Shown piece by piece: positions 43,593-61,662 of a stretch of 64,000 nucleotides of DNA (within the stretch, counting starts at the first letter, position 1; each line of letters begins with the position of its first letter). The DNA is from Micavibrio aeruginosavorus. GTDB taxonomy: Bacteria; Pseudomonadota; Alphaproteobacteria; Micavibrionales; Micavibrionaceae. The DNA lies in the NCBI GenBank assembly GCA_016432265.1, contig CP066681.1, positions 2,072,342 through 2,136,341 of the forward strand, in the 5' to 3' direction. The notes beneath the pieces are model-generated. The model did not search any database and was not told where the DNA came from. It saw nothing but the letters and a program-made list of their open reading frames with translations. A program made the position numbers and the translations under genes.

Positions 43593-44059
43593 TGAGAAAG
43601 ATTTCCCTACCATTGCTCGCCTGCCTGATATGCTCCAGCGCCTATGCTGAGGAAGCTCTGCAACAGCCTGTTACATATAAAGAATTCTATGAATTTGCGA
43701 ATCAAGTTGACGATAAGGCCCATACGCTGACGGTCGCGCAGTTTAAAGAAATGATGTCTGATCCTGAGGTTATTATTGCAGATCTACGCAGTAAAGAAGC
43801 TTACGATCAGGAACACATTAAAGGTGCCGTTCATCTCGGCCCCGATATCACCCTTGAGAAACTGCAATCAATCGCGCCTTCGAGCGATAAAAAGATCATC
43901 ATGTATTGCGCCAATTCCTTGTTCCAGACGCGTATGGTGTCTTTGACTGATGTGGCGCTGCCGCAAGCTTTATACCTTGGATACAAGAATACCTATATTC
44001 TTGAACGATATTCGGGTCAGGGAGAAAAAATCGATCTTCCATTTGAAGGCCAGCCATGA
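43592..44059 (+). CDS. Secreted rhodanese-like protein
   Basis: 155 residues with a signal peptide (about 1-19, ending SSAYA). The rhodanese fold is seen as VIIADLRSKEAYDQEHIKGA then VHLG, and the active-site loop YCANSLFQTRM with Cys about 106. It should act on thiols or sulfane sulfur in the periplasm. It overlaps the flhA stop by 1 base (TAATG) and the next gene by 4, so it is tied to flhA expression; the reason is unclear. Confidence 0.8.
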   Translation: MRKISLPLLACLICSSAYAEEALQQPVTYKEFYEFANQVDDKAHTLTVAQFKEMMSDPEVIIADLRSKEAYDQEHIKGAVHLGPDITLEKLQSIAPSSDKKIIMYCANSLFQTRMVSLTDVALPQALYLGYKNTYILERYSGQGEKIDLPFEGQP

Positions 44060-44955
44060 CCTCAAACCTGCCGCCTCGCATCATTCATGATATTCTGCTG
44101 GATATGCAGAAACTGGCCCCCGCTCTTGAAAAAAAGCGCCGGGCCTACAATCTGAGTCTGCTGATCGGGGTTTTTGTCATCGTTGGCGCCCTTTATGCCC
44201 TGCTTTCCTACCTCACCGACCCTCGCCTGGGCAGTCAGATTGCGATGATCGGGGTTGCCTTCCTGCCCAGCTATATTCTCTACAGAGTCCTGAACCACCT
44301 ATACGGCAAAGCCGTCCATAGAGCCTTTATCAAAGCCGTATGCAAACAAGGAGTGCTCTCCTACTCTGAACTCGGTTTCTTCGAGTCTCGCGAGATCGAA
44401 CATCATAAAATCCTGCCCCACGCCCTGAAAAGCGTTTCAGGAGAAGGCATTAAAGGGACGTACCAAAGCATTACCTTTGTTCTTCAGGAAATATCGCTGC
44501 GAAACAAGGGGGATACCGCGTTCTGGGGGATAGCCGCCCGCATTTACCTCTCGCACGCCTTCGAGGGCCACACCGTCATGATCCCTCACGGTCGACATAT
44601 GGCCGACTTTCTCCTGCGTTTTCCAAACTGGAAAAAAATCAACACCATGTCCGCAAAATATGCACCTTACTATGAAGGCCTGACGAGCGATCCCGTAGAA
44701 GCCCGCGCCGTATTGCCTCCGCACTTCATGGAAAGACTGATGGATGCCGGACAATTGCCGCGCGGCAAGATGATGAGCCTCAGCCTGACCGGACGCGAAA
44801 TATTGCTGGCCTACCCGCGCTTTCGACCGCTCTTTGTGGTTCCCGCCCTGTGGCAGCCGGTATCTCTGGCCGCGATGCAACGTTGTATATGGGAAATAGA
44901 ATCTATTTTCAGGGTAATCGATGTCATCAAAAGCAATCGCCAGATTCGCACATGA
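44056..44955 (+). CDS. DUF3137-type membrane protein A
   Basis: 299 residues with two membrane segments (about 30-51 and 62-82) and a large soluble domain. The pattern SYSELGFFESREIEHHKILP, then VSGEGIKGTYQSITFVLQEI and FEGHTVMIPHG resembles DUF3137 proteins. Such proteins lack a known function. It overlaps the next gene, a paralogue, by 4 bases (ATGA). Downstream of flhA in the same transcription unit. Confidence 0.7.
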   Translation: MTSNLPPRIIHDILLDMQKLAPALEKKRRAYNLSLLIGVFVIVGALYALLSYLTDPRLGSQIAMIGVAFLPSYILYRVLNHLYGKAVHRAFIKAVCKQGVLSYSELGFFESREIEHHKILPHALKSVSGEGIKGTYQSITFVLQEISLRNKGDTAFWGIAARIYLSHAFEGHTVMIPHGRHMADFLLRFPNWKKINTMSAKYAPYYEGLTSDPVEARAVLPPHFMERLMDAGQLPRGKMMSLSLTGREILLAYPRFRPLFVVPALWQPVSLAAMQRCIWEIESIFRVIDVIKSNRQIRT

Positions 44956-45971
44956 AACCGATTGACGCCCCCATGCTCGACATGTTCCCCACAGCCGAGG
45001 CCATCTTCAAAGATAATTACGATGTCATCAGGCTGCTGGAAAACAGACGGCGCAACATGATCTTCGTTTTCATCATCACTAGCTTGGTTATTGGTCTGTT
45101 TTCATTTTTTGCCACGCCATTTATCTTGCCTCTCCGATCGGGGCCGAGTCCTGACATGCGATTTTCGCTGCAACTGCTCTATGCTATTATCGCCGCTTTA
45201 TGCTTTATACCCGTCCAATACAGCTTTATTGACGGGTTGTACCGTCAGCTTGCAAAACGCAAATGCCTGGATATTATCGCCGGCAGCCTGAAAATGACCT
45301 ACCGTCGCGGCGGGTATTTTTACCTCACAGATATATACGACCACCACATACTCCCGCCCTATACGAAACGTAGGGTCGAAGAGGGTTTTTCAGGAAAATT
45401 CAAAGGGTTCAAGATCGAATTTCAGGATTTTTTTATCAGCTCCGCAAGACGCTGCCTCGAAGGCGCGAGCTTCCGTTCCCTGCCTTTGCTCGGGCGCTAT
45501 TACGGTCTGGCCATGAAAGTGGAGCTGAATAAACGCTTCGCCTATCATACTGTTTTACTGCCCGCAAAAGAGCAAAAGCGTTTTCTGGCCTCACTGCCGA
45601 ACGCAAACCTCTTCCTGCACGAGGATGTCAACCTCGTGTATCACAATTTCACCCGCCACTATGTCTGTCTCTCTACCCATCAGGTCGAAGCTCGTTACAT
45701 TCTGGATCCTGCCGTCATGGAGCGTTTCGCCCGTCTGGCCGAATCATTTGATACGGATCTCATATCCGCCAGCTTTATGGGCAATGAAATGGTCGTCGTG
45801 ATGCGCCCTCTGCTGAACCTGTTCGAAGTCGGCAGCCTGCGCGATCCCGTCACAGTCCTGACCATCGAACGCACATTGATGCAAATCCATACCCTGCGGC
45901 AGATGGCCGAGATTTTTGAGCTGAACGACAAGGTCGGGCTAGGCGCGGCCGTCACGGGACGGATCGACTGA
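44952..45971 (+). CDS. DUF3137-type membrane protein B (paralogue)
   Basis: 339 residues from ATG 44952. Same layout as its neighbour: two membrane segments (about 38-58 and 70-92) and a soluble domain with YLTDIYDHHILPPYTKRRVE, then FKGFKIEFQDFFISSARRCL and VLLPAKEQ. The two genes arose by tandem duplication long ago, since similarity is only visible in the domain order and short motifs. Function unknown. Confidence 0.7.
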   Translation: MKPIDAPMLDMFPTAEAIFKDNYDVIRLLENRRRNMIFVFIITSLVIGLFSFFATPFILPLRSGPSPDMRFSLQLLYAIIAALCFIPVQYSFIDGLYRQLAKRKCLDIIAGSLKMTYRRGGYFYLTDIYDHHILPPYTKRRVEEGFSGKFKGFKIEFQDFFISSARRCLEGASFRSLPLLGRYYGLAMKVELNKRFAYHTVLLPAKEQKRFLASLPNANLFLHEDVNLVYHNFTRHYVCLSTHQVEARYILDPAVMERFARLAESFDTDLISASFMGNEMVVVMRPLLNLFEVGSLRDPVTVLTIERTLMQIHTLRQMAEIFELNDKVGLGAAVTGRID

Positions 45972-46100: not shown

Positions 46101-47234
46101 ATGCGGCTAAAATCTTTTTATGCAAAAACAATGACCGAGGCGATGCAAATGGTGCGCCAGACTCTCGGAGATGACGCAGTGATCGTGGCTACCCGTGAGG
46201 AGCACGGCGGGAAAGCCGTGCGCGTAACGGCCGCGATAGAGCAAACCGACAGCGGCGACTATGATGATTTCGAAAAAGACTTTCGCGCCTTTCGTGAGAA
46301 TTACCGCTCCCGCCGCGCGGCACCTGCCAGCAGCAGCCCGAACTTCGAGATCGACACCGTGGATGCGCCGCAGCTTTCGGCCCGCGAATGGCTGCAATAC
46401 GACAGCGAAGACGAGGAAGGCGCCGTCATCGAACAACTGACCGACGCCATGCTGCGTCATGGCGTGCCGGATGAAATCACCGACCAAGTCATTTCCTGCG
46501 CCACAGTCATCGGTGCTGACGATGCCGGGACATCCCTGACCGCTGCCCTTGAGCATCTGTATTCCTTCCGCCCGTTGCCGCAAAAATCAACCTCGACCGC
46601 CCTGATGGTCGTCGGCCCGCCCGGGGCCGGGAAAACGCTGGCCGTGGCCAAGCTCGCCGCCCGCGGCGTCATGAACGGCTTGCGCGTGGCGGTTATCACG
46701 ACCGATGTGATCCGTGCCGGCGGCGTCGAACAACTGGCAGCCTTTACCAAAATCCTGCGCATCGACCTGCAAAAAGCCTCATCGGCGCAATCATTGCGGC
46801 TAGCTATCGAGAATGCCCGAACCGCCGACCAGATTTTAATCGATACCGCTGGTTACAACCCGTTTGCACCCGATGAAATGCGTGACCTCGCACGCCTGAT
46901 CACCGCCGGGGATATTGAACCTGTCATGGTCATGCCTGCGGGCGCGGATGCCGACGAATGCGGTGAAATGGCGCGTGTTTACGCTACGCTGGGCGTGCGC
47001 TCCATGCTGCCCACCCGCCTCGACATCGCCCGCCGCCTGGGAGGCCTTCTGGCCGCCGCTCATCACGGCGGTCTGATTTTCGCCGATGCCAGCAACACCC
47101 CCAAAGTCGCCGACGGCCTGATCGGGCTGTCGCCCCGCCGCCTAGCCCATCTTCTCATGCCGGAACTGGCGCGCAGCCAGCCTTCCTCTTCGGCCCCTTC
47201 CGTAAACACTCAACGCCATAAACAGAACGCTTAA
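46101..47234 (+). CDS. flhF: FlhF, SRP-type GTPase for flagellar placement
   Basis: 377 residues. The N-terminal MRLKSFYAKTMTEAMQMVRQ with TLGDDAVIVATREE is the FlhF start. The GTPase has G1 GPPGAGKT (about 172), the SRP-type insertion and G3 DTAG (about 248, here DTAGYNP). The G4 motif is not a clear TKxD (TRLD instead). FlhF sets the place of new flagella, usually a pole, and is countered by FlhG just downstream. Confidence 0.94.
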   Translation: MRLKSFYAKTMTEAMQMVRQTLGDDAVIVATREEHGGKAVRVTAAIEQTDSGDYDDFEKDFRAFRENYRSRRAAPASSSPNFEIDTVDAPQLSAREWLQYDSEDEEGAVIEQLTDAMLRHGVPDEITDQVISCATVIGADDAGTSLTAALEHLYSFRPLPQKSTSTALMVVGPPGAGKTLAVAKLAARGVMNGLRVAVITTDVIRAGGVEQLAAFTKILRIDLQKASSAQSLRLAIENARTADQILIDTAGYNPFAPDEMRDLARLITAGDIEPVMVMPAGADADECGEMARVYATLGVRSMLPTRLDIARRLGGLLAAAHHGGLIFADASNTPKVADGLIGLSPRRLAHLLMPELARSQPSSSAPSVNTQRHKQNA

Positions 47235-47249
47235 AGATACCACGTCAGG

Positions 47250-48098
47250 ATGACCACCATGAATGACATCGTCACCGCCAAGCTGCCCCCCGCCGATCTG
47301 CCCGCCACACCCAGTTTCCGGCGCGGCAAGAACATCATCGCCGTGGCAAGCGGTAAAGGCGGCGTCGGCAAAACATGGTTCTCGATAACGCTCTCGCACG
47401 CGCTGGCCAAGGAAGGCAAACGCGTACTGCTGTTTGATGGCGACCTGGGTCTGGCCAACGTCGACGTGCAATTGGGCCTTATGCCCAAGCGCGACCTGAA
47501 TGACGTGATCCGCGGGCGTTTGAGCCTCGATAAGGTTATCCAGCCCTTCGAAGAGGGCGGTTTTGACATCGTCGCCGGGCGTTCCGGGCAAGCCTCGCTC
47601 TCGTCATTGCCCAGTCAGCGTCTGATGTTCCTGCGCGACCAGTTGCTGGAAGTCGCCGAGAAATACGATGTTGTCGTCATCGATCTGGGCGCCGGCGTGG
47701 ATCGCACCGTTCGCATGATGTCGGCCTCGGCCACACGAACTCTGCTGATCACAACGGACGAACCGACATCGCTTACCGACGCCTATGCCTTTATCAAGCT
47801 CGGTAACGCCGCCGGTATGTCGAAGCATATCAGCATCGTCTCCAACATGGCGCAAAGCGCGCTTGAGGGAGAGAAAACCTACCGCACCCTGCTGAAGGCC
47901 TGCGAAAACTTCCTGCGCCTGTCTCCGCCGCTGGCAGGCATCGTCCGTCACGACCCGCGCGTCAAGGATACTATCCGCCACCAGACCCCCATTCTGGTGC
48001 GTTCCCCCAATACCGACGCCGCCGAGGACGTCACCAAAATTGCCCGGGCACTTATGTATCAACTGGCTGATACGCAGCGCATGACCGCCGGTTTCTAG
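47250..48098 (+). CDS. flhG: FlhG (MinD-like ATPase), flagellar number regulator
   Basis: 282 residues. Deviant Walker A AVASGKGGVGKTWFSITLSH (about 31-50), then LLFDGDLGLANVDVQLGL, IDLGAGVDRTVRMM and TTDEPTSLTDAYAFIKL. Such MinD-like proteins stimulate FlhF GTPase and limit flagellar number. ATG 47250 is used; ATG 47259 is an alternative. Confidence 0.93.
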   Translation: MTTMNDIVTAKLPPADLPATPSFRRGKNIIAVASGKGGVGKTWFSITLSHALAKEGKRVLLFDGDLGLANVDVQLGLMPKRDLNDVIRGRLSLDKVIQPFEEGGFDIVAGRSGQASLSSLPSQRLMFLRDQLLEVAEKYDVVVIDLGAGVDRTVRMMSASATRTLLITTDEPTSLTDAYAFIKLGNAAGMSKHISIVSNMAQSALEGEKTYRTLLKACENFLRLSPPLAGIVRHDPRVKDTIRHQTPILVRSPNTDAAEDVTKIARALMYQLADTQRMTAGF

Positions 48099-48140: not shown

Positions 48141-50315
48141 ATGAGCGATTCAGGCTTTTCACAGTTCCCGACCAAACCCCCGCCGCAAGCCGGGCAAAAC
48201 CTGCTTTCTCTCAAGGCGGGGCTAAAAGCGCAGGTGCTGGAAATATCCGGAAAAATTGCCCGGCTGGACGCGCCCCAAACCGTGAGCGGCGAAGTAGCCA
48301 AGGTCAACCGCGACGGCACGGTGCAGGTTAAAACCGAACAAGGTGAACTGACGATCAAGCCGCGCGAACGCATCATCCCTGCGGAGGGACAAAAGCTGCA
48401 AATCGACTTACCGGCAGGAGCGCCGCCGAAACAGGTGACCCTGCGCCCGGCGCCGCCCGCTATGCCATCGCTCCCTCAGATCCCAAGCCCGAACGCACCG
48501 CCACCGCTCCCCCGACCCGAAAACGCAGCGTCCGCACCTGCGTCCATTCAAACGCCGCCGGCAGGAACATTTCCGGCACGACCCGCTCTTGACCCACACG
48601 TGCAAGCGCATCTTAACCAGCATCTGGCAACGCGCCCCACCCCCGCGGCGACAGCGCCTGCCCTTGTTTCAACGCCCCCGATTTTGTCTGAGGGCGCATT
48701 GATACGTTTGACACCGCTGTCTCCTCCGCAGGTGAAGGAATTTCTGACACAAGCCGTTCCGGCTGTCATACATCCATTGTCAACGCGACTGGCAGCGCAG
48801 GCCACGCCGCAAACCGACGCCCTGTTTCAAGAGCTGCCGCAAGAATCGATAAGAACTCTAACCACAACGCCAAAAGAAACTCTGCAATCAATTGCCCGGC
48901 ACCTGAACGAGGTCATCCGCACAGGGGGATTTCCCATTACAACGCTCCCGGAGATTCAGATAGCTTTCCCGAGCGCTGCACAAATGCCAGAACTCATATT
49001 GCGCACATTCAGTCCTGCTGGCATATCACAGTCGCCGCCCGGACAGGCTGTCGCCCGACCTTTGCCTTTCATGGATATGTCTCCGGTAATGACCGGGAAA
49101 TTATTACCCGGGGAGACCATACCGCTTATCCGCATCTCACTGCAGCCGCCCTTGCTGACGACCCCAACGGCAGATTCCGGCGTCTTCATTATGTTCAAAA
49201 CAAGTCCCCCGCTGACGACGCAACCTCTGACAGGCGGCATATCGCCTGTGTCAACACGCCTGCCCCAATCGCTTGATATGCGGGTACAAACCATCCACCC
49301 TCCCGTGACGGCGCTGATCACGCCGCTTCCAGCGCCCGAGTCCTTGAAAATCTCGAACCTCGGTCTGACAGCAACGCCTGTTGCCACACTTCCGCAAATG
49401 GAATTGATTACCCGGCCTGCCGCAGCCACGCAGACGACAGTCCAGATCATCGGCATGACAGCGCGGCAAATCCCCGTCATCATGATGCCGTTGCCGCAAA
49501 CCGGCGATGTTCAGTTCTTTACAATCCCGGTCATGGCCAGCAACCTAAACCCGGGCACCATTTTAACCTTGACGCCACAACCGGGGGCTTCTCTGGCGAT
49601 ATCCCAGTCCATATCCAGCGACCCACCCGGCGTTTTCGAATTGATGAGCGGGTTTCGCTGGCCGGTATTTGACGAACTGGCAGAGATTCAGAATCTGCAA
49701 ATTCAGGCAACAACAGTGCATTCGCTGGCGCAAATCCTGCCGTCGCCCGCGCAACCGGCCAAATTACCCGCGGCAGCGCTGCTTTTCATCGCTGCCGTGC
49801 GGGCGGGCGATATACAGGCATGGCTCGGCGACAAAACCGTCGACCAATTGCGCCGTGGCGGCAAGGCGGAATGGGTCGCGCGCATGAGCCGTGAATTCTC
49901 AGGCCTGAACAAGCTGGCGTCCGAACCCGTAAACGCGGAATGGCGCGGGATGAGCATTCCTTTATATGCCCAAGGGCAAATCGACAAAATCCATCTCTAT
50001 TACCGCTCCAGTGACCACGGATCTGACCGCGATCAGGAGCAAAAAAACAAGGGCGGTTCCACCCGCTTCATCTTTGACCTGAACTTAAGCGCCATAGGCC
50101 CGGTGCAGCTTGACGGTTACGTGCGGAATAAAACTCTCGATCTTGCAGTGCGCACCGAACAACCTTTCAGCGCCGCAATGCGCCATAACATGACCCGTCG
50201 CTATATCCATGTGCTGGAAGCTGCCGGGCTTGAAGGCACCCTGATCTTCCAATCCCATCCCGATAAGTGGGTGCACATCACCCCGCGCACCGATCTTCTC
50301 AGCACTTCAATCTAG
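48141..50315 (+). CDS. Second FliK-like protein with a long Pro-rich region
   Basis: 724 residues. About the first 500 are rich in Pro, Thr and Ala (PAMPSLPQIPSPNAPPPLPR style), with repeated short beta stretches. The C-terminal part (about 560-715) is compact and conserved-looking: KLPAAALLFIAAVRAGDIQA, then RFIFDLNLSAIGPVQLDGYV and RNKTLDLAVRTEQPFSAAMR. That tail resembles the C-terminal domain of FliK/hook-length-type proteins. True fliK is at 19247. No signal peptide. Follows flhG by 42 bases. Confidence 0.7.
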   Translation: MSDSGFSQFPTKPPPQAGQNLLSLKAGLKAQVLEISGKIARLDAPQTVSGEVAKVNRDGTVQVKTEQGELTIKPRERIIPAEGQKLQIDLPAGAPPKQVTLRPAPPAMPSLPQIPSPNAPPPLPRPENAASAPASIQTPPAGTFPARPALDPHVQAHLNQHLATRPTPAATAPALVSTPPILSEGALIRLTPLSPPQVKEFLTQAVPAVIHPLSTRLAAQATPQTDALFQELPQESIRTLTTTPKETLQSIARHLNEVIRTGGFPITTLPEIQIAFPSAAQMPELILRTFSPAGISQSPPGQAVARPLPFMDMSPVMTGKLLPGETIPLIRISLQPPLLTTPTADSGVFIMFKTSPPLTTQPLTGGISPVSTRLPQSLDMRVQTIHPPVTALITPLPAPESLKISNLGLTATPVATLPQMELITRPAAATQTTVQIIGMTARQIPVIMMPLPQTGDVQFFTIPVMASNLNPGTILTLTPQPGASLAISQSISSDPPGVFELMSGFRWPVFDELAEIQNLQIQATTVHSLAQILPSPAQPAKLPAAALLFIAAVRAGDIQAWLGDKTVDQLRRGGKAEWVARMSREFSGLNKLASEPVNAEWRGMSIPLYAQGQIDKIHLYYRSSDHGSDRDQEQKNKGGSTRFIFDLNLSAIGPVQLDGYVRNKTLDLAVRTEQPFSAAMRHNMTRRYIHVLEAAGLEGTLIFQSHPDKWVHITPRTDLLSTSI

Positions 50316-50391: not shown

Positions 50392-52353
50392 ATGAGCAGC
50401 GAACTGAAGCGTGATATCGTCGAATCCCTACGCCCCTTGCCCTACGCACGGGAAGTGCAGGCATGGCTGGTCGACTTCATCGCTGCCGCCACAATCAAGA
50501 AAAAGCCGCCGGAAGATTATATCCGCAATCTGGAGCGCCCCAGTGCAACCTTCGTCGATTCACGGGATATCAACGAAGCCGTTGATATCATACACACTAT
50601 CTACGCCCGTAAAGGGTATCTCCCCCCTTGGGAGTTGGAAGACGAACTGATCCGGGCCTATAACCCTGATATCCCCGAAACGGCGTTGCAGAAAACACTC
50701 GAATTCAGCGCTACGGAAAAGGCCCGCGACCCTCTGACGGGTTACTATCAGAAACCGCAAGTCCCCCTCGTGATGGGATTGGCCGCCCTTTATAAAGAAG
50801 CGCAACAACAACCGGTCAGCGTCATAGAGATCGATTTCAGCAATATGCGCGGCACCAATGAGCACAACGAAAAGATCCTGCACACCGCCGATCCCGGTAA
50901 ACCTGAATCCGACATTCGCGACGAGGCCATGGCATTGACCGACCGTTATGCGCTTCTGGTCGCAGCCAGCATTATGAAAGCCGCGCAGGATCGTGTGCTC
51001 GATAGCCGGGAGCCCGCTGTTCAACTTATGCCGCTGCGCACCGGAGGCGATGAAATCAGGGTCGTCGTCGTCAACCTCGATCCTGCGGAGGCGTCCCGGC
51101 TAATGCCGGCCATCCATGACAGCATCGAGGCCGTAACCGCTACATTGGGTCTGCACGACCACCCGCATGCCAAACGGCCGCTGGATAACTTCTCTAACGG
51201 CTTTGGCGCAGCGGGCACTGTCTTCCCGCTGCGGGCCGATGGCCGCTTTGATGAAACGATTGCCGAAGCCGATAAGGCGATCGGAGATTTCAAGGTTGAA
51301 CTGGGCCGCATCCGCGCTGAAAACTCCCCTTTCGCCGCGCTGAAGCCGGATCAATTCAATCTTGATGAGATTTACCGCGATCAGGGCGTCGCACAGAGAT
51401 TCTTGCAAGAACTCAATCGCCGCCTTGAAGAGGAAACGGGCAAGCTCAACCTGCAGGCAGTAACGCCTCCGGCATTCCCGACCATTGAAGAGATTGTGCA
51501 CAAAAACAGGCCGGATCATATTCCCGACAGGCCTGAGCTACAGACGATGATCCTGAACGAATTCCGCTGCCGCCTCGACGAGGCAGGCATCCAGCTCACA
51601 CCCGCACAGGAAAAAATACTGCGGATCAAGGTATTGAAATTTCCGCAAAGCGACCCTTCATCAGGCGCACTGATCGGGCGCGATTTCCCGGCCATGGCCG
51701 GCATGGCGATGCAGGTTGTCGCCGATATCAATCAAAGAACCGGTCAGCAAGCCGCCCTGTGGACGATCGGCACCAGCTTCCACAATCTGGCGGGACTCAA
51801 TGAAACTCTGGGCCACGGCCACAGCAATCTGGTCTTGCGCTATCAAGCGCAGGACATCATTAAAGAAAGTCTGCATAAAATTGGCGTCGATCGCCGCCAT
51901 TTCCAGATCGCGCATATGGGGAACGGCGATTTTTATACAATCGTTCAACCAGTTATTCTTGATGACGCCGGAAAGGTACGCACGGTCACAGCCAAGGATA
52001 TCGACAAGGCCTGCCTGGAAATTGAGCAGCGCCTTGAAAAATTCAACAAAACCAGCATCAAGTCTTTCCTGACACGCTATGGCATTCAGGGCGCCGATGA
52101 CCTGCCCCCTTCATTCTCGCTGATGGCTAATCCGCGCGACGCCCGGATGCCGGGTTTGCGTGTTTCTCTTTCGGCAAAGTCCTATATCGCCGACCCCAGC
52201 ATCGACACCCACCATAATCGCCAAGGCGGCGCCGTCATGAGATTCATCACCGAACATCTGTCAGACATGGCAAGCACCAACAAAGCGCGCTGGGCCAAGG
52301 AAGCCGCGCAAGTGTTCGATCCCCACCCGCAAATCCCGTTTGCTAGAGGCTGA
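50392..52353 (+). CDS. Cytoplasmic protein with two degenerate GGDEF-like domains
   Basis: 653 residues with no membrane segment. Domain 1 (about 105-290) has the GGDEF layout: DPLTGYYQ, IEIDFSNMRGTNEHNEKIL, then RTGGDEIRVVVVNLDPAEA, where GGDE is kept but F is I. Domain 2 (about 425-535) has NLAGLNETLGHGHSNLVLR and then HMGNGDFYTIVQP, where GGDEF has become GNGDF. Enzymatic synthesis of c-di-GMP is unlikely, at least for domain 2; nucleotide sensing is possible. It follows the FliK-like gene by 76 bases. Confidence 0.7.
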   Translation: MSSELKRDIVESLRPLPYAREVQAWLVDFIAAATIKKKPPEDYIRNLERPSATFVDSRDINEAVDIIHTIYARKGYLPPWELEDELIRAYNPDIPETALQKTLEFSATEKARDPLTGYYQKPQVPLVMGLAALYKEAQQQPVSVIEIDFSNMRGTNEHNEKILHTADPGKPESDIRDEAMALTDRYALLVAASIMKAAQDRVLDSREPAVQLMPLRTGGDEIRVVVVNLDPAEASRLMPAIHDSIEAVTATLGLHDHPHAKRPLDNFSNGFGAAGTVFPLRADGRFDETIAEADKAIGDFKVELGRIRAENSPFAALKPDQFNLDEIYRDQGVAQRFLQELNRRLEEETGKLNLQAVTPPAFPTIEEIVHKNRPDHIPDRPELQTMILNEFRCRLDEAGIQLTPAQEKILRIKVLKFPQSDPSSGALIGRDFPAMAGMAMQVVADINQRTGQQAALWTIGTSFHNLAGLNETLGHGHSNLVLRYQAQDIIKESLHKIGVDRRHFQIAHMGNGDFYTIVQPVILDDAGKVRTVTAKDIDKACLEIEQRLEKFNKTSIKSFLTRYGIQGADDLPPSFSLMANPRDARMPGLRVSLSAKSYIADPSIDTHHNRQGGAVMRFITEHLSDMASTNKARWAKEAAQVFDPHPQIPFARG

Positions 52354-52705: not shown

Positions 52706-53140
52706 CTATTTCTCATCGTCCAGCACCTTGCGCCGATATTGTTCGAGCGCGACTTCATCCAGCAGATCATCCTCTTTCTTCTGCCGTTTTTTCTCCTCGC
52801 GCTTCTCGCGATTGGTTTGCGTAATCTGGATTTTCTTCATGTCCGCAAAAGCCGCCCGCATATCCTCCTGCGCGGCCTCAATCCTCATCTCGACTTTCTT
52901 AATCGTCGATTGCAATGCGGCGATTTTCTTGCGCGCCCCTTCGGCATAACGCCCGTAATAAGTGATCGCCTCGGGTCGGTTCATGTCTTCGGCCAGCTTC
53001 TTCTCATGCGCCATTTGCTCCTGCACGATCTGCTTTTGTTTCTCAAGATTCTCAATCTCCCTGTATAGCTGCGCAACCACGCGCTGCTTTTCCTCAACCG
53101 CATGCTTCTTCAAGCGAATAAGAGGATCGAGATCGGCCAT
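52706..53140 (-). CDS. fliJ: FliJ, export chaperone/ATPase stalk protein
   Basis: 144 residues, nearly all coiled coil (LDPLIRLKKHAVEEKQRVVA, then EIENLEKQKQIVQEQMAHEK and a Lys/Arg/Glu-rich tail), fitting FliJ. FliJ lies in the centre of the FliI hexamer. It starts 6 bases after fliI. C-terminal KREEKKRQKKEDDLLDE is longer than usual. Confidence 0.9.
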   Translation of the reverse strand: MADLDPLIRLKKHAVEEKQRVVAQLYREIENLEKQKQIVQEQMAHEKKLAEDMNRPEAITYYGRYAEGARKKIAALQSTIKKVEMRIEAAQEDMRAAFADMKKIQITQTNREKREEKKRQKKEDDLLDEVALEQYRRKVLDDEK

Positions 53141-53146
53141 AACGGG

Positions 53147-54478
53147 TTATCCCTTCACCCCGACGATCTGGCCCAGGCGGGCAAACCCATCGGCAATCGA
53201 CGTATTTTCTTCCTTGCGCTGGGTCAGGAATTCCTCGATCTGCGGATATAGCTTGATCGCTTCATCGACCTTGGGATCGCTACCCTTGCGATAAGCACCA
53301 AGGCGGATCAACTCGGCCATATCTTCATAAGTGGTAATCAATTGTTTGGCGCGTTTGATGATCGCGCCCCGCTCGTCGCTCACAGCCTTAGGCATCGACC
53401 GCGATACCGACTTCAGGATATTGATGGCAGGATAGCGGCCGCGGTCGGCAATTTCGCGTTCCATGACGATGTGGCCATCGACAATACCGCGCACAGCATC
53501 TGAAATCGGTTCGTTCTGGTCGTCGCCCTCCACCAGCACGGCGAACAATCCGGTAATTGACCCCTGCCCCGGCGCACCCGGCCCGGCCCGCTCCAACAAC
53601 CGCGCCAATTCACCGAATGTCGTCGGCGGATAACCTTTGGAAGTCGGCGGCTCGCCCGCGCTTAATCCAATCTCGCGCTGCGCCATGGCAAAACGCGTCA
53701 GCGAGTCGATCAGACACAAAACCTGCTTGCCTTGATTGCGGAAATATTCGGCGGTCGCCAGCGTGACATAAGCGGCCTGCCGCCGCATCAGCGCCGGCTC
53801 GTCCCCCGTGGCAACGATCACGACAGATCGTTTCAGCCCTTCCGGCCCCAGATCGTCCTGAATAAACTCCTGCACCTCGCGACCGCGTTCACCGACCAGG
53901 CCGATCACGCTGACATCGGCGGCGGTATATCGCGCCATCATCGACAGCAGTACCGATTTGCCGACACCGGAGCCCGAAAAGATGCCCATACGCTGGCCGC
54001 GGCATGTGGCAAGGAAAGTATTCACCGCCCGCACCCCGAGGTCGAGTTGCTGCCCCATGCGCTGACGGCTGTGCGGCGCAGGCGGCTTGTTCCTTAAAGG
54101 AATCGGATGCCCGCCCTGTGGCAACGGCCCCAACCCGTCGATCGGTTCACCCATGCCATTGATCACGCGGCCGAGCCAGCGCTCGTCTGGGGTAACCACC
54201 GGCTGATTACGCTGGATCATAGCAGGGCATCCGAGCGTCACCCCCTCAAGCGAGCCAAACGGCATCAGCAAGGCGTGGTTGTCGCGAAAACCTACAACCT
54301 CGCAAGGAATGACCAGATCGCGACGGGGCTTGAGATGAACATGCGCGCCGATCGATAATCCCTGCCCGAACCCGGCCATCTCCACCAGCAACCCCAGTAC
54401 CTTCGTCACCCGACCATAAATTTCATAGTCGGGAACGATTGAGACGGCAGCTTCGGCTTGTTCTGAAAGACGATCCAT
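53147..54478 (-). CDS. fliI: FliI, flagellar export ATPase
   Basis: 443 residues. Walker [15 protein letters not shown] (about 165-178), Walker [21 protein letters not shown] and the F1-like [20 protein letters not shown]. The C-terminal helical domain ends [20 protein letters not shown]. FliI, with FliH and FliJ, prepares substrates for export. Together with fliJ it forms a two-gene minus-strand unit. Confidence 0.97.
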
Positions 54479-59191: not shown

Positions 59192-60272
59192 ACTGGCGCG
59201 CCCGCTGTTGCACAGGCTTGATCCCGAAACGGCCCACCACCTCACCCTGAAAGGCCTCAAGGCGCTGCCCGCCTGCAAACCGCGGCGCGATGACGCTGCA
59301 CTGTCCGTCACATTGTGGAACCGCAGTTTTCCAAACCCCGTGGGTCTGGCCGCCGGGTTTGATAAAAACGCTGAAGTCATGGCGCCGATGCTGGGCTTCG
59401 GCTTTGGTTTCGTCGAGGCTGGAACCGTGACCCCCAGGGCGCAGGAGGGAAACCCCCGCCCGCGCGTTTTTCGCTCCGCCCGCGACCAGGCTGTCATCAA
59501 CCGCATGGGCTTTCCCAATCAAGGGGTCGACGCTTTTCGCCGTAACCTTGAAAGCTTCCTGAGCGTCAAGCCGCGCCCGCGCGGGATCATTGGTATCAAT
59601 ATCGGCATGAACAAGGATCAAACGGATCCCGCCCGCGATTACTGCGCGCTGGTACGCCAACTGGGGCCGCTGGCCGACTACCTGACTGTCAATATTTCCT
59701 CGCCCAACACACCGGGCCTGCGGGATCTGCAAAACAAAGCAAATCTGCTTGCTCTGTTGGCGCAAATTCTTGAAGAACGCGCACGGGCATGCCCGCAGGA
59801 TACCCCGCCGCTGCTGGTCAAGCTGGCGCCCGATTTGACCGAAGAACAGATGAGTGATATCGCCGCTGCCGCCCTGCAATCCGGGATCGATGGCCTGATC
59901 CTGACCAACACCACGCTGGCCCGCCCCGGGAGCCTTGCCCAACCCTTCGGTGCCGAACGCGGTGGCCTGAGCGGCCTGCCGCTGCGCAAGAATGCGCTTG
60001 GCGTTTTACGACGCTTTTACGAACTGACGGAAGGAAAAATTCCATTGATCGGCGTTGGCGGCATTACGGACGGCAACGACGCTTATGACAGGATTCGCGC
60101 AGGGGCCTCGCTGGTGCAACTATATAGCGCTCTGGTCTTTCAAGGCCCCGACATGATAAAAGACATCAAACAGACATTGATCGAACGCCTCAAAACCGAT
60201 GGCTTTAACCGCATCGAAGACGCCATCGGTGCCGACCACCATAAAACTGCGATGAAACGACATGCTTCCTGA
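59181..60272 (+). CDS. pyrD: PyrD, dihydroorotate dehydrogenase (quinone, class 2)
   Basis: 363 residues. The class 2 membrane-binding N-terminus (LARPLLHRLDPETAHHLTLK) is present, and the core has NPVGLAAGFDKNAEVMAPML, GFVEAGTVTPRAQEGNPRPR and the catalytic-Ser motif VNISSPNTPGLRDLQ. FMN-binding segments end with LIGVGGITDGNDAYDRIRAG. It oxidises dihydroorotate in pyrimidine synthesis using membrane quinone. Overlaps the next gene by 11 bases. Confidence 0.97.
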   Translation: MLFELARPLLHRLDPETAHHLTLKGLKALPACKPRRDDAALSVTLWNRSFPNPVGLAAGFDKNAEVMAPMLGFGFGFVEAGTVTPRAQEGNPRPRVFRSARDQAVINRMGFPNQGVDAFRRNLESFLSVKPRPRGIIGINIGMNKDQTDPARDYCALVRQLGPLADYLTVNISSPNTPGLRDLQNKANLLALLAQILEERARACPQDTPPLLVKLAPDLTEEQMSDIAAAALQSGIDGLILTNTTLARPGSLAQPFGAERGGLSGLPLRKNALGVLRRFYELTEGKIPLIGVGGITDGNDAYDRIRAGASLVQLYSALVFQGPDMIKDIKQTLIERLKTDGFNRIEDAIGADHHKTAMKRHAS

Positions 60273-61662
60273 ATTTCTTACCACGCCGGAAGACAAACCG
60301 GAAAACAATCCCGACGTGCTGTTCCGTTTCGCCCGTTTCGGCCGTACCGATGAGTTCAGCCGTCTGCGCCGCCGTCTGTTCGTAGGATCTGTAGCCGCCG
60401 CTGTTTGCGGCACGGCTCTGCTTTATGCCATAGGGCAATACGCCACGCCCGATTTCCTGATACTGGTGGCAGCGCTGATCCTGCTGGGCGGCCTTGTCAT
60501 CTATGATATTTTCAGCCGCCGCCTGTGGGAGAACGCCGTCTCCGTGCAAATCCAGACTCTGATCCGCAACCACGACCGCCTTGTGCGTGAAGTGGCGCGC
60601 AACCGCACGGAAATCTCCGTTCTCAAGGAGGGGCTGTTTGATACCGCGCACGCCGTCGAAGAAGAAGGGCGCCATCAATCGCCATCATCCTCGATCGAGG
60701 CAAAGATGATCGGCACGATCGTTTCGCGTCTGGCGGCTCTCGGGCGCAAGGCTATTCCCGGCGAACCGCTGCCGCCCGAGCAGCCCCCCCCCCGCAAGGA
60801 CACCGCCGTTATGGCGTTGCAAATCGCGCCGCCCGCGCCAAAGGCGCCACCAATGAGCGAACTGGATATGGCGATGGATCCGAAATTCACCCATTACAGC
60901 GATGCCATGATTCAAGGACTGCTGGAACAGGCCGTGCAGGAAGACCGTGTCGATGTATTCGTCCAGCCGGTCGTCAGCCTGCCGCAGCGCAAGCCCCGCA
61001 TGTATGAGGTTTTCGGCCGCATCCGCGCCATGCAGGGAACATATCTCCCGGCTACGCATTACATGGCCATGGCGCAAAAAGAACAATTGATGCCCGCGAT
61101 CGAAAACCTGTTGCTGCTGCGCTGCCTGCAAATCCTGCGCGACAGTCACGATCGCGACAGTCAAACGCCCTACATTCTCAATATCTCGACAGAAACGCTG
61201 AACGATACCGGATTCATGGGCGATCTTGTCACCTTCCTTTCGCAAAACCGCGCCATGGCGAACCGTCTGATTTTTGAATTGCCGCAGGCCCAGATCGACA
61301 GCATGCCCGCCCAGCAATCATCGATCCTCGACGGTCTCTCGCGGCTTGGGGTGCGTTTTTCGATGGATCGGGTGAGTAGCGGAAAATTCGACGTGCCCTT
61401 GCTCAAAAGTCGCCATATCCGCTTCATCAAGCTGGACGCCGCATGGCTCACCCGCGAAAACGCCAGCGACGGCGGGCATACGCGCATCAGCCGCCTTAAG
61501 ACCCAACTGGACGGGGCCGGGATCGACCTGATCATGGAAAAGGTTGAGAATGAGAAAACGCTACGCGAATTGCTGGATTTCGGCATCGATTACGGACAAG
61601 GTTGGCATTTCGGCAAGCCCGATCTCTACGGCGCGCGCAAAACCAGCCGTAAAGTCGCCTGA
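60262..61662 (+). CDS. TipF-like protein: two membrane segments, coiled coil and degenerate EAL domain
   Basis: 466 residues. Two N-terminal membrane helices (about 38-58 and 63-83) are followed by a coiled coil (about 95-140), a Pro-rich linker (170-205) and an EAL-type domain (about 212-455). The EAL motif is EVF (about 249-251), DDFG is replaced by MDRVSSG, but LDAAWL and YGQGWHFGKP remain. Catalysis is unlikely. Length and layout match Caulobacter TipF, a c-di-GMP-responsive flagellar placement factor. A link to flagellar assembly fits the cluster. Confidence 0.8.
   Translation: MLPEFLTTPEDKPENNPDVLFRFARFGRTDEFSRLRRRLFVGSVAAAVCGTALLYAIGQYATPDFLILVAALILLGGLVIYDIFSRRLWENAVSVQIQTLIRNHDRLVREVARNRTEISVLKEGLFDTAHAVEEEGRHQSPSSSIEAKMIGTIVSRLAALGRKAIPGEPLPPEQPPPRKDTAVMALQIAPPAPKAPPMSELDMAMDPKFTHYSDAMIQGLLEQAVQEDRVDVFVQPVVSLPQRKPRMYEVFGRIRAMQGTYLPATHYMAMAQKEQLMPAIENLLLLRCLQILRDSHDRDSQTPYILNISTETLNDTGFMGDLVTFLSQNRAMANRLIFELPQAQIDSMPAQQSSILDGLSRLGVRFSMDRVSSGKFDVPLLKSRHIRFIKLDAAWLTRENASDGGHTRISRLKTQLDGAGIDLIMEKVENEKTLRELLDFGIDYGQGWHFGKPDLYGARKTSRKVA

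Follow-up and report, generated by a model that had tools for sequence, protein, structure and literature searches.

The window, a stretch of 64,000 nucleotides from Micavibrio aeruginosavorus, contains a run of flagellar genes. Here, flhF, flhG, and a fliK-like gene are followed by an open reading frame of 653 amino acids that starts with ATG and encodes a tandem GGDEF protein (Table 1). The gene order is the one given in the original prediction, which had also called the protein soluble; no obvious membrane segment is seen in it. The FliK-like reading frame has no Pfam or NCBIfam match, and an AT-rich gap of 76 bases lies between it and the target gene. Further upstream, between flhA and flhF, the window holds two adjacent DUF3137 proteins (44056-45971), and similar genes are found there in several related genomes.

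Table 1. Features of the locus, with positions counted from the first nucleotide of the window.
Feature	Position	Strand	Basis and remarks
FlhF, flagellar GTPase	46101..47234	+	TIGR03499, E=5e-46, slightly below cut-off; same direction as target
FlhG/MinD-type ATPase	47250..48098	+	Profile match; kept in 69 of 71 genomes of the taxonomic family
FliK-like protein, fast-evolving	48141..50315	+	Positional conservation only
Tandem GGDEF protein (target)	50392..52353	+	653 aa; reading frame, AlphaFold2 model, Foldseek
Domain 1, residues 105-312	50704..51327	+	GGDEF with all catalytic and GTP-binding residues; LHDHxHxK loop
Domain 2, residues 414-642	51631..52317	+	Pseudo-GGDEF; metal ligands replaced by S462 and G512
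fliJ-like gene	52706-53140	-	Conserved block; named by eye and position; convergent with target
fliI-like gene	53147-54478	-	Conserved block; named by eye and position; convergent with target
TipF-like degenerate EAL protein	60262..61662	+	TipF model (NF051880), 188.8 bits against a cut-off of 600

Profile searches recognize this protein faintly. With the single sequence, the Pfam GGDEF model (PF00990) matches residues 215-254 with E=7e-4 (19.8 bits, against a cut-off of 23.8) and TIGR00254 matches with E=1.3e-4; a PleD model matches residues 446-554, in the second domain, with E=0.0096. The full-length target stays below the curated cut-off in each case, while several homologues surpass that of Pfam GGDEF (24.1-26.2 bits). 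A search of PDB sequences with the target, both as a single sequence and as a profile, returned nothing useful.

An AlphaFold2 model of the whole protein, built with 24 homologues, is confident (mean pLDDT 87.5, pTM 0.81) and has two domains. Foldseek finds WspR as its best match (E=1.9e-6), together with PleD and other cyclases, and the target TM reaches 0.72 against isolated GGDEF domains. Folded alone, domain 2 has a pLDDT of 91.3 and a pTM of 0.89, and gives a target TM of 0.58-0.73 against isolated GGDEF domains in the top rows of the structure search; among the matches listed, GGDEF domains are found throughout, including that of FimX. For domain 1, the assignment rests on the full model, on the order of strands and helices, and on an hhalign alignment over 153 columns. 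In these models, both domains of the protein are GGDEF folds. This bears out the two GGDEF-type domains of the original prediction, whose four quoted motifs are all present, and the checks proposed with it, a profile search and structure prediction of both regions, gave weak profile matches and GGDEF folds. Because the direct similarity between domain 1 and domain 2 is weak (hhalign E 0.08), the view that they arose by internal duplication rests on the shared fold and the order of motifs.

The assignment of roles to residues in PleD is, of course, established knowledge about diguanylate cyclases. When domain 1 is aligned by hhalign with diguanylate cyclases from the same genome, D148 falls on the first metal-binding Asp, N156 and D184 fall on guanine-binding residues, residues 218-221 fall on GG(D/E)E, and K301 falls on the phosphate-binding Lys. 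Across 24 aligned homologues, whose identity to the target is mostly only 24-27%, D148, N156, the GGDE at 218-221, K301, and R308 are invariant, and D184 is kept in 23. Eight of the nine positions equivalent to active-site positions are invariant, against 27 invariant columns in 202 (hypergeometric P=3e-7). The sole departure of domain 1 from the active signature is the fifth letter of GGDEF, which is I, L, or V in the family (GGDEI in the target). R308 sits at K+7 on a longer helix, where K+4 is canonical, and helix periodicity suggests that it would be the equivalent of the second phosphate-binding residue. Domain 1 has the residues and the fold of a diguanylate cyclase, and is presumably catalytic. 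Inspection of the sequence finds no Arg and Asp at the spacing expected for an RxxD I-site ahead of GGDE in domain 1, which makes sensing of c-di-GMP by that usual site appear unlikely.

Domain 1 also carries a motif specific to this family. L-x-D-H-x-H-x-K occupies residues 254-261, with H257, H259, and K261 present in 24 of 24 sequences; the DHxHxK part is only partly kept in the two most distant members, which come from other orders. This loop immediately precedes strand 4, the counterpart of the "SIGIA" strand. Given the ferredoxin-like strand order, it should adjoin the metal site.

In domain 2, the first metal-ligand position is S, A, or G and the second is G or A in all 24 sequences. 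N470, G474-H475, H508, and G510 are invariant; the guanine-binding Asn (N470) is thus among the residues kept despite the loss of both metal ligands. The contrast between the domains is repeated in two members from other alphaproteobacterial orders (SGGDE or AGGDE in domain 1, GGGK in domain 2). The original prediction held that both domains depart from the active signature; this is so for domain 2 but, fifth letter aside, not for domain 1. A comparison of two congeners gives a dN/dS of roughly 0.04 in domain 2 and roughly 0.07 in domain 1, with dS near saturation. These values point to purifying selection on both domains, strong on domain 2, and since the ratio for domain 2 is below that for domain 1, domain 2 is evidently not decaying.

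Of 58 related genomes covered by a first search, 8 have homologues. In the order Micavibrionales, 22 of 142 genomes carry the family (a count that leaves out two weak matches near E=1e-4, the tally of the alignment search being 24), and members also occur in two other alphaproteobacterial orders. A scan of a public genome collection gave 16 loci, each under the title Alphaproteobacteria, Micavibrio, or Rhodospirillaceae. Among 299 sampled genomes of the phylum, no relatives were found beyond the window's own genome; none were found in viral contigs, phages, or plasmids, and the target has no PADLOC or PHROGs match. The family appears almost only in Micavibrionales-type Alphaproteobacteria. The window's own genome encodes, outside the window, a paralog of 1533 residues (P0006; L027:6933-11534, approximately C1:2400932-2405533). 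Here, an N-terminal HD/PDEase_I-like domain is followed by the tandem GGDEF pair and then by a glycine-zipper C-terminal region that matches phage tail-lysin and tape-measure profiles. Genome G001 carries a 1559-residue copy of this paralog.

A block in which flhF-flhG-fliK faces fliJ-fliI is common in the taxonomic family. Two genera, represented by G000 and G001 in the one and by G023, G078, G080, and G081 in the other, have the target as an additional gene between fliK and fliJ. The other genomes examined lack the family gene at this site; in them, fliJ comes directly after fliK or the block has been rearranged. In the tree, the six members at this site make up a single clade with full support and a long branch, a pattern that fits one recruitment. 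A second clade, from a different genus (G094 and G098; L080:8296-10575 and L081:8277-10571), is co-oriented and downstream of flgF-flgG-flgA-flgH, and its members also adjoin dksA. For 16 of the 24 family genes, no homologue of the window's flagellar genes is nearby; neighbours sampled at non-flagellar loci include glycogen debranching enzymes and M48 peptidases. Genes for the latter (L024:12688-13896, L084:6739-7929, and L086:10499-12901) adjoin the family gene in three genomes, two from one genus and one from another taxonomic family. With only two clades placed near flagellar genes and those 16 placed elsewhere, the flagellar link seems to be clade-specific and suggestive, not a family-wide trait. 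This weakens the proposal, made with the original prediction, of a general control system for flagellar placement, as does the lack of the gene at the other flhF-flhG-fliK loci examined.

A diguanylate cyclase is normally built from two identical halves, as a homodimer. The best explanation for the target, and one that we hold to be somewhat probable, is that a GTP-using cyclase or nucleotidyltransferase has been combined with a pseudo-GGDEF partner in one chain and recruited to a flagellar operon. Domain 1 would be the competent, metal-dependent, GTP-using catalytic half. Domain 2, which does not hold metal, probably either retains guanine-nucleotide binding or docks against domain 1; this, in turn, is why it may act in cis as the built-in partner and regulator of domain 1. 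A homodimer formed through domain 1 could make ordinary c-di-GMP, with domain 2 regulating. Alternatively, chemistry with one metal site across the interface between domain 1 and domain 2 might deliver a linear, cyclic, or unusual dinucleotide. In the window's lineage, the gene would have been captured behind fliK, as the last gene of the flhF-flhG-fliK operon, and is presumably transcribed with it. Because of this capture, the product or the GTP-bound state might be expected to influence how flagella are assembled or how they function at the pole.

The enzyme reading is supported by the conservation of the domain-1 active site (P=3e-7), by the loss in domain 2, by the pTM of 0.81, and by selection on both domains. 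It is also supported by the own-genome paralog, which fuses an HD phosphodiesterase-like domain to the same tandem. Counting against it are the position of R308 at K+7 and the replacement of the canonical GGDEF Phe by I, L, or V. Against a pair in cis, more specifically, counts the single metal-bearing half, whereas a standard diguanylate cyclase requires two. That the metal-bearing half acts across the interface with the metal-free pseudo-half, giving a linear dinucleotide or a non-standard cyclic product locally at the Micavibrio-type flagellum, is improbable. Such an active half with a pseudo-half does have logical parallels in mammalian adenylyl cyclase and in Cas10.

Conservation of an active site need not, of course, mean that dinucleotides are made. 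GTP cyclohydrolase III likewise has palm-type domains in tandem, one half being degenerate, and a GTP-consuming enzyme that is not a cyclase, for example one that hydrolyses GTP to GMP or resembles a cyclohydrolase, might be enabled by the DHxHxK loop. Its H257, H259, and K261 are invariant and lie just before strand 4, probably beside the metal site. Hydrolysis is a real alternative because GGDEF domains that are isolated, blocked in dimerization, or conformationally trapped do convert GTP to GMP (PMC7825114). The profile searches, however, found no match to a cyclohydrolase family, and the guanine-pocket and phosphate-binding residues match those of cyclases; we judge this route quite doubtful. 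Nor need GTP be consumed at all. GGDEF domains are known to serve as conformational switches that depend on GTP (PMC7825114; PMC9061725), and both domains here may bind nucleotide and switch conformation as a non-catalytic sensor of GTP or c-di-GMP that regulates FlhF, FlhG, or the export apparatus. The Asn retained in domain 2 after the metal site was lost would fit such a sensor. The metal ligands D148 and D220, together with E221, K301, and R308, are nevertheless invariant in distant homologues, which suggests catalysis, although binding of metal-GTP alone could also conserve them. If c-di-GMP were the ligand, the I-site not seen upstream of GGDE in domain 1 would count against it. A sensor of this kind seems unlikely.

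All of these biochemical readings are compatible with the gene being a lineage-specific passenger that happened to insert where the fliK operon ends and has no flagellar role. This would explain why 16 of 24 family genes are found away from flagellar clusters, why many genomes having the flhF-flhG-fliK block lack the gene, and why a 76-base AT-rich gap follows fliK. It would not so easily explain why two separate clades are co-oriented at the ends of different flagellar runs (fliK; flgFGAH), or why the position is kept in six genomes of two genera although identity between the genera is 38-45%. Chance insertion is a serious possibility, if a rather unlikely one.

The target shares its fold with the GGDEF diguanylate cyclases PleD, WspR, and DgcB (PF00990), and domain 1 has the full set of their catalytic and GTP-binding residues. 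The target differs from them in having two GGDEF domains per chain, the second without metal ligands, in having GGDE[ILV]R for GGDEF, in the added DHxHxK loop, in having no I-site, and in scoring below the Pfam and NCBIfam cut-offs. PelD, FimX, and LapD are degenerate GGDEF receptors and switches. Like domain 2, they have the GGDEF fold without the catalytic motif; in the target, however, the degenerate domain follows a competent GGDEF domain, not an EAL domain, and EAL is absent from the protein. Cas10/Csm1 also has two palm-type domains per chain, one of them degenerate, and its N-terminal HD domain has a counterpart in the own-genome paralog. The order of its palm domains is the opposite, the active half coming first in the target. 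Foldseek aligns the target with Cas10 over about 690 columns with a significant E-value, but with a TM of 0.24-0.26 and an rmsd of about 15, and no Cas10 profile matches the target. These TM values and the missing Cas10 motifs speak against membership in Cas10; the likeness is at most an analogy.

In the open literature searched, no description of an active/pseudo GGDEF tandem was found. If the preferred reading is true, a natural family that joins a competent half to a conserved pseudo-half within one chain would illustrate how asymmetry evolves in the GGDEF fold. The family would also be a ready single-chain system for asking whether one metal site suffices for dinucleotide synthesis. Its placement beside flhF-flhG-fliK is a lead on local flagellar nucleotide signalling in a poorly studied order.

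In genome G000, seven GGDEF and six EAL matches exceed the cut-off, which makes c-di-GMP signalling likely in the source organism; no PilZ match was found in this genome. The original prediction paired the target with the TipF-like protein encoded downstream in the window, a weak match to the model (NF051880) of the Caulobacter flagellar EAL protein TipF and unrelated to the target. Across the order, TipF occurs in 99 of 142 genomes, most of which lack the target family: 18 genomes have both, 4 have the family without TipF, 81 have TipF only, and 39 have neither (Fisher p=0.21). With the two distributions independent and proximity in the window as its sole support, a dedicated pair was rejected. 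The TipF-like protein does deserve the label "degenerate EAL" that it had been given. By eye, most of its catalytic residues are kept, and its DDFG loop is changed to FSMDRVSSG.
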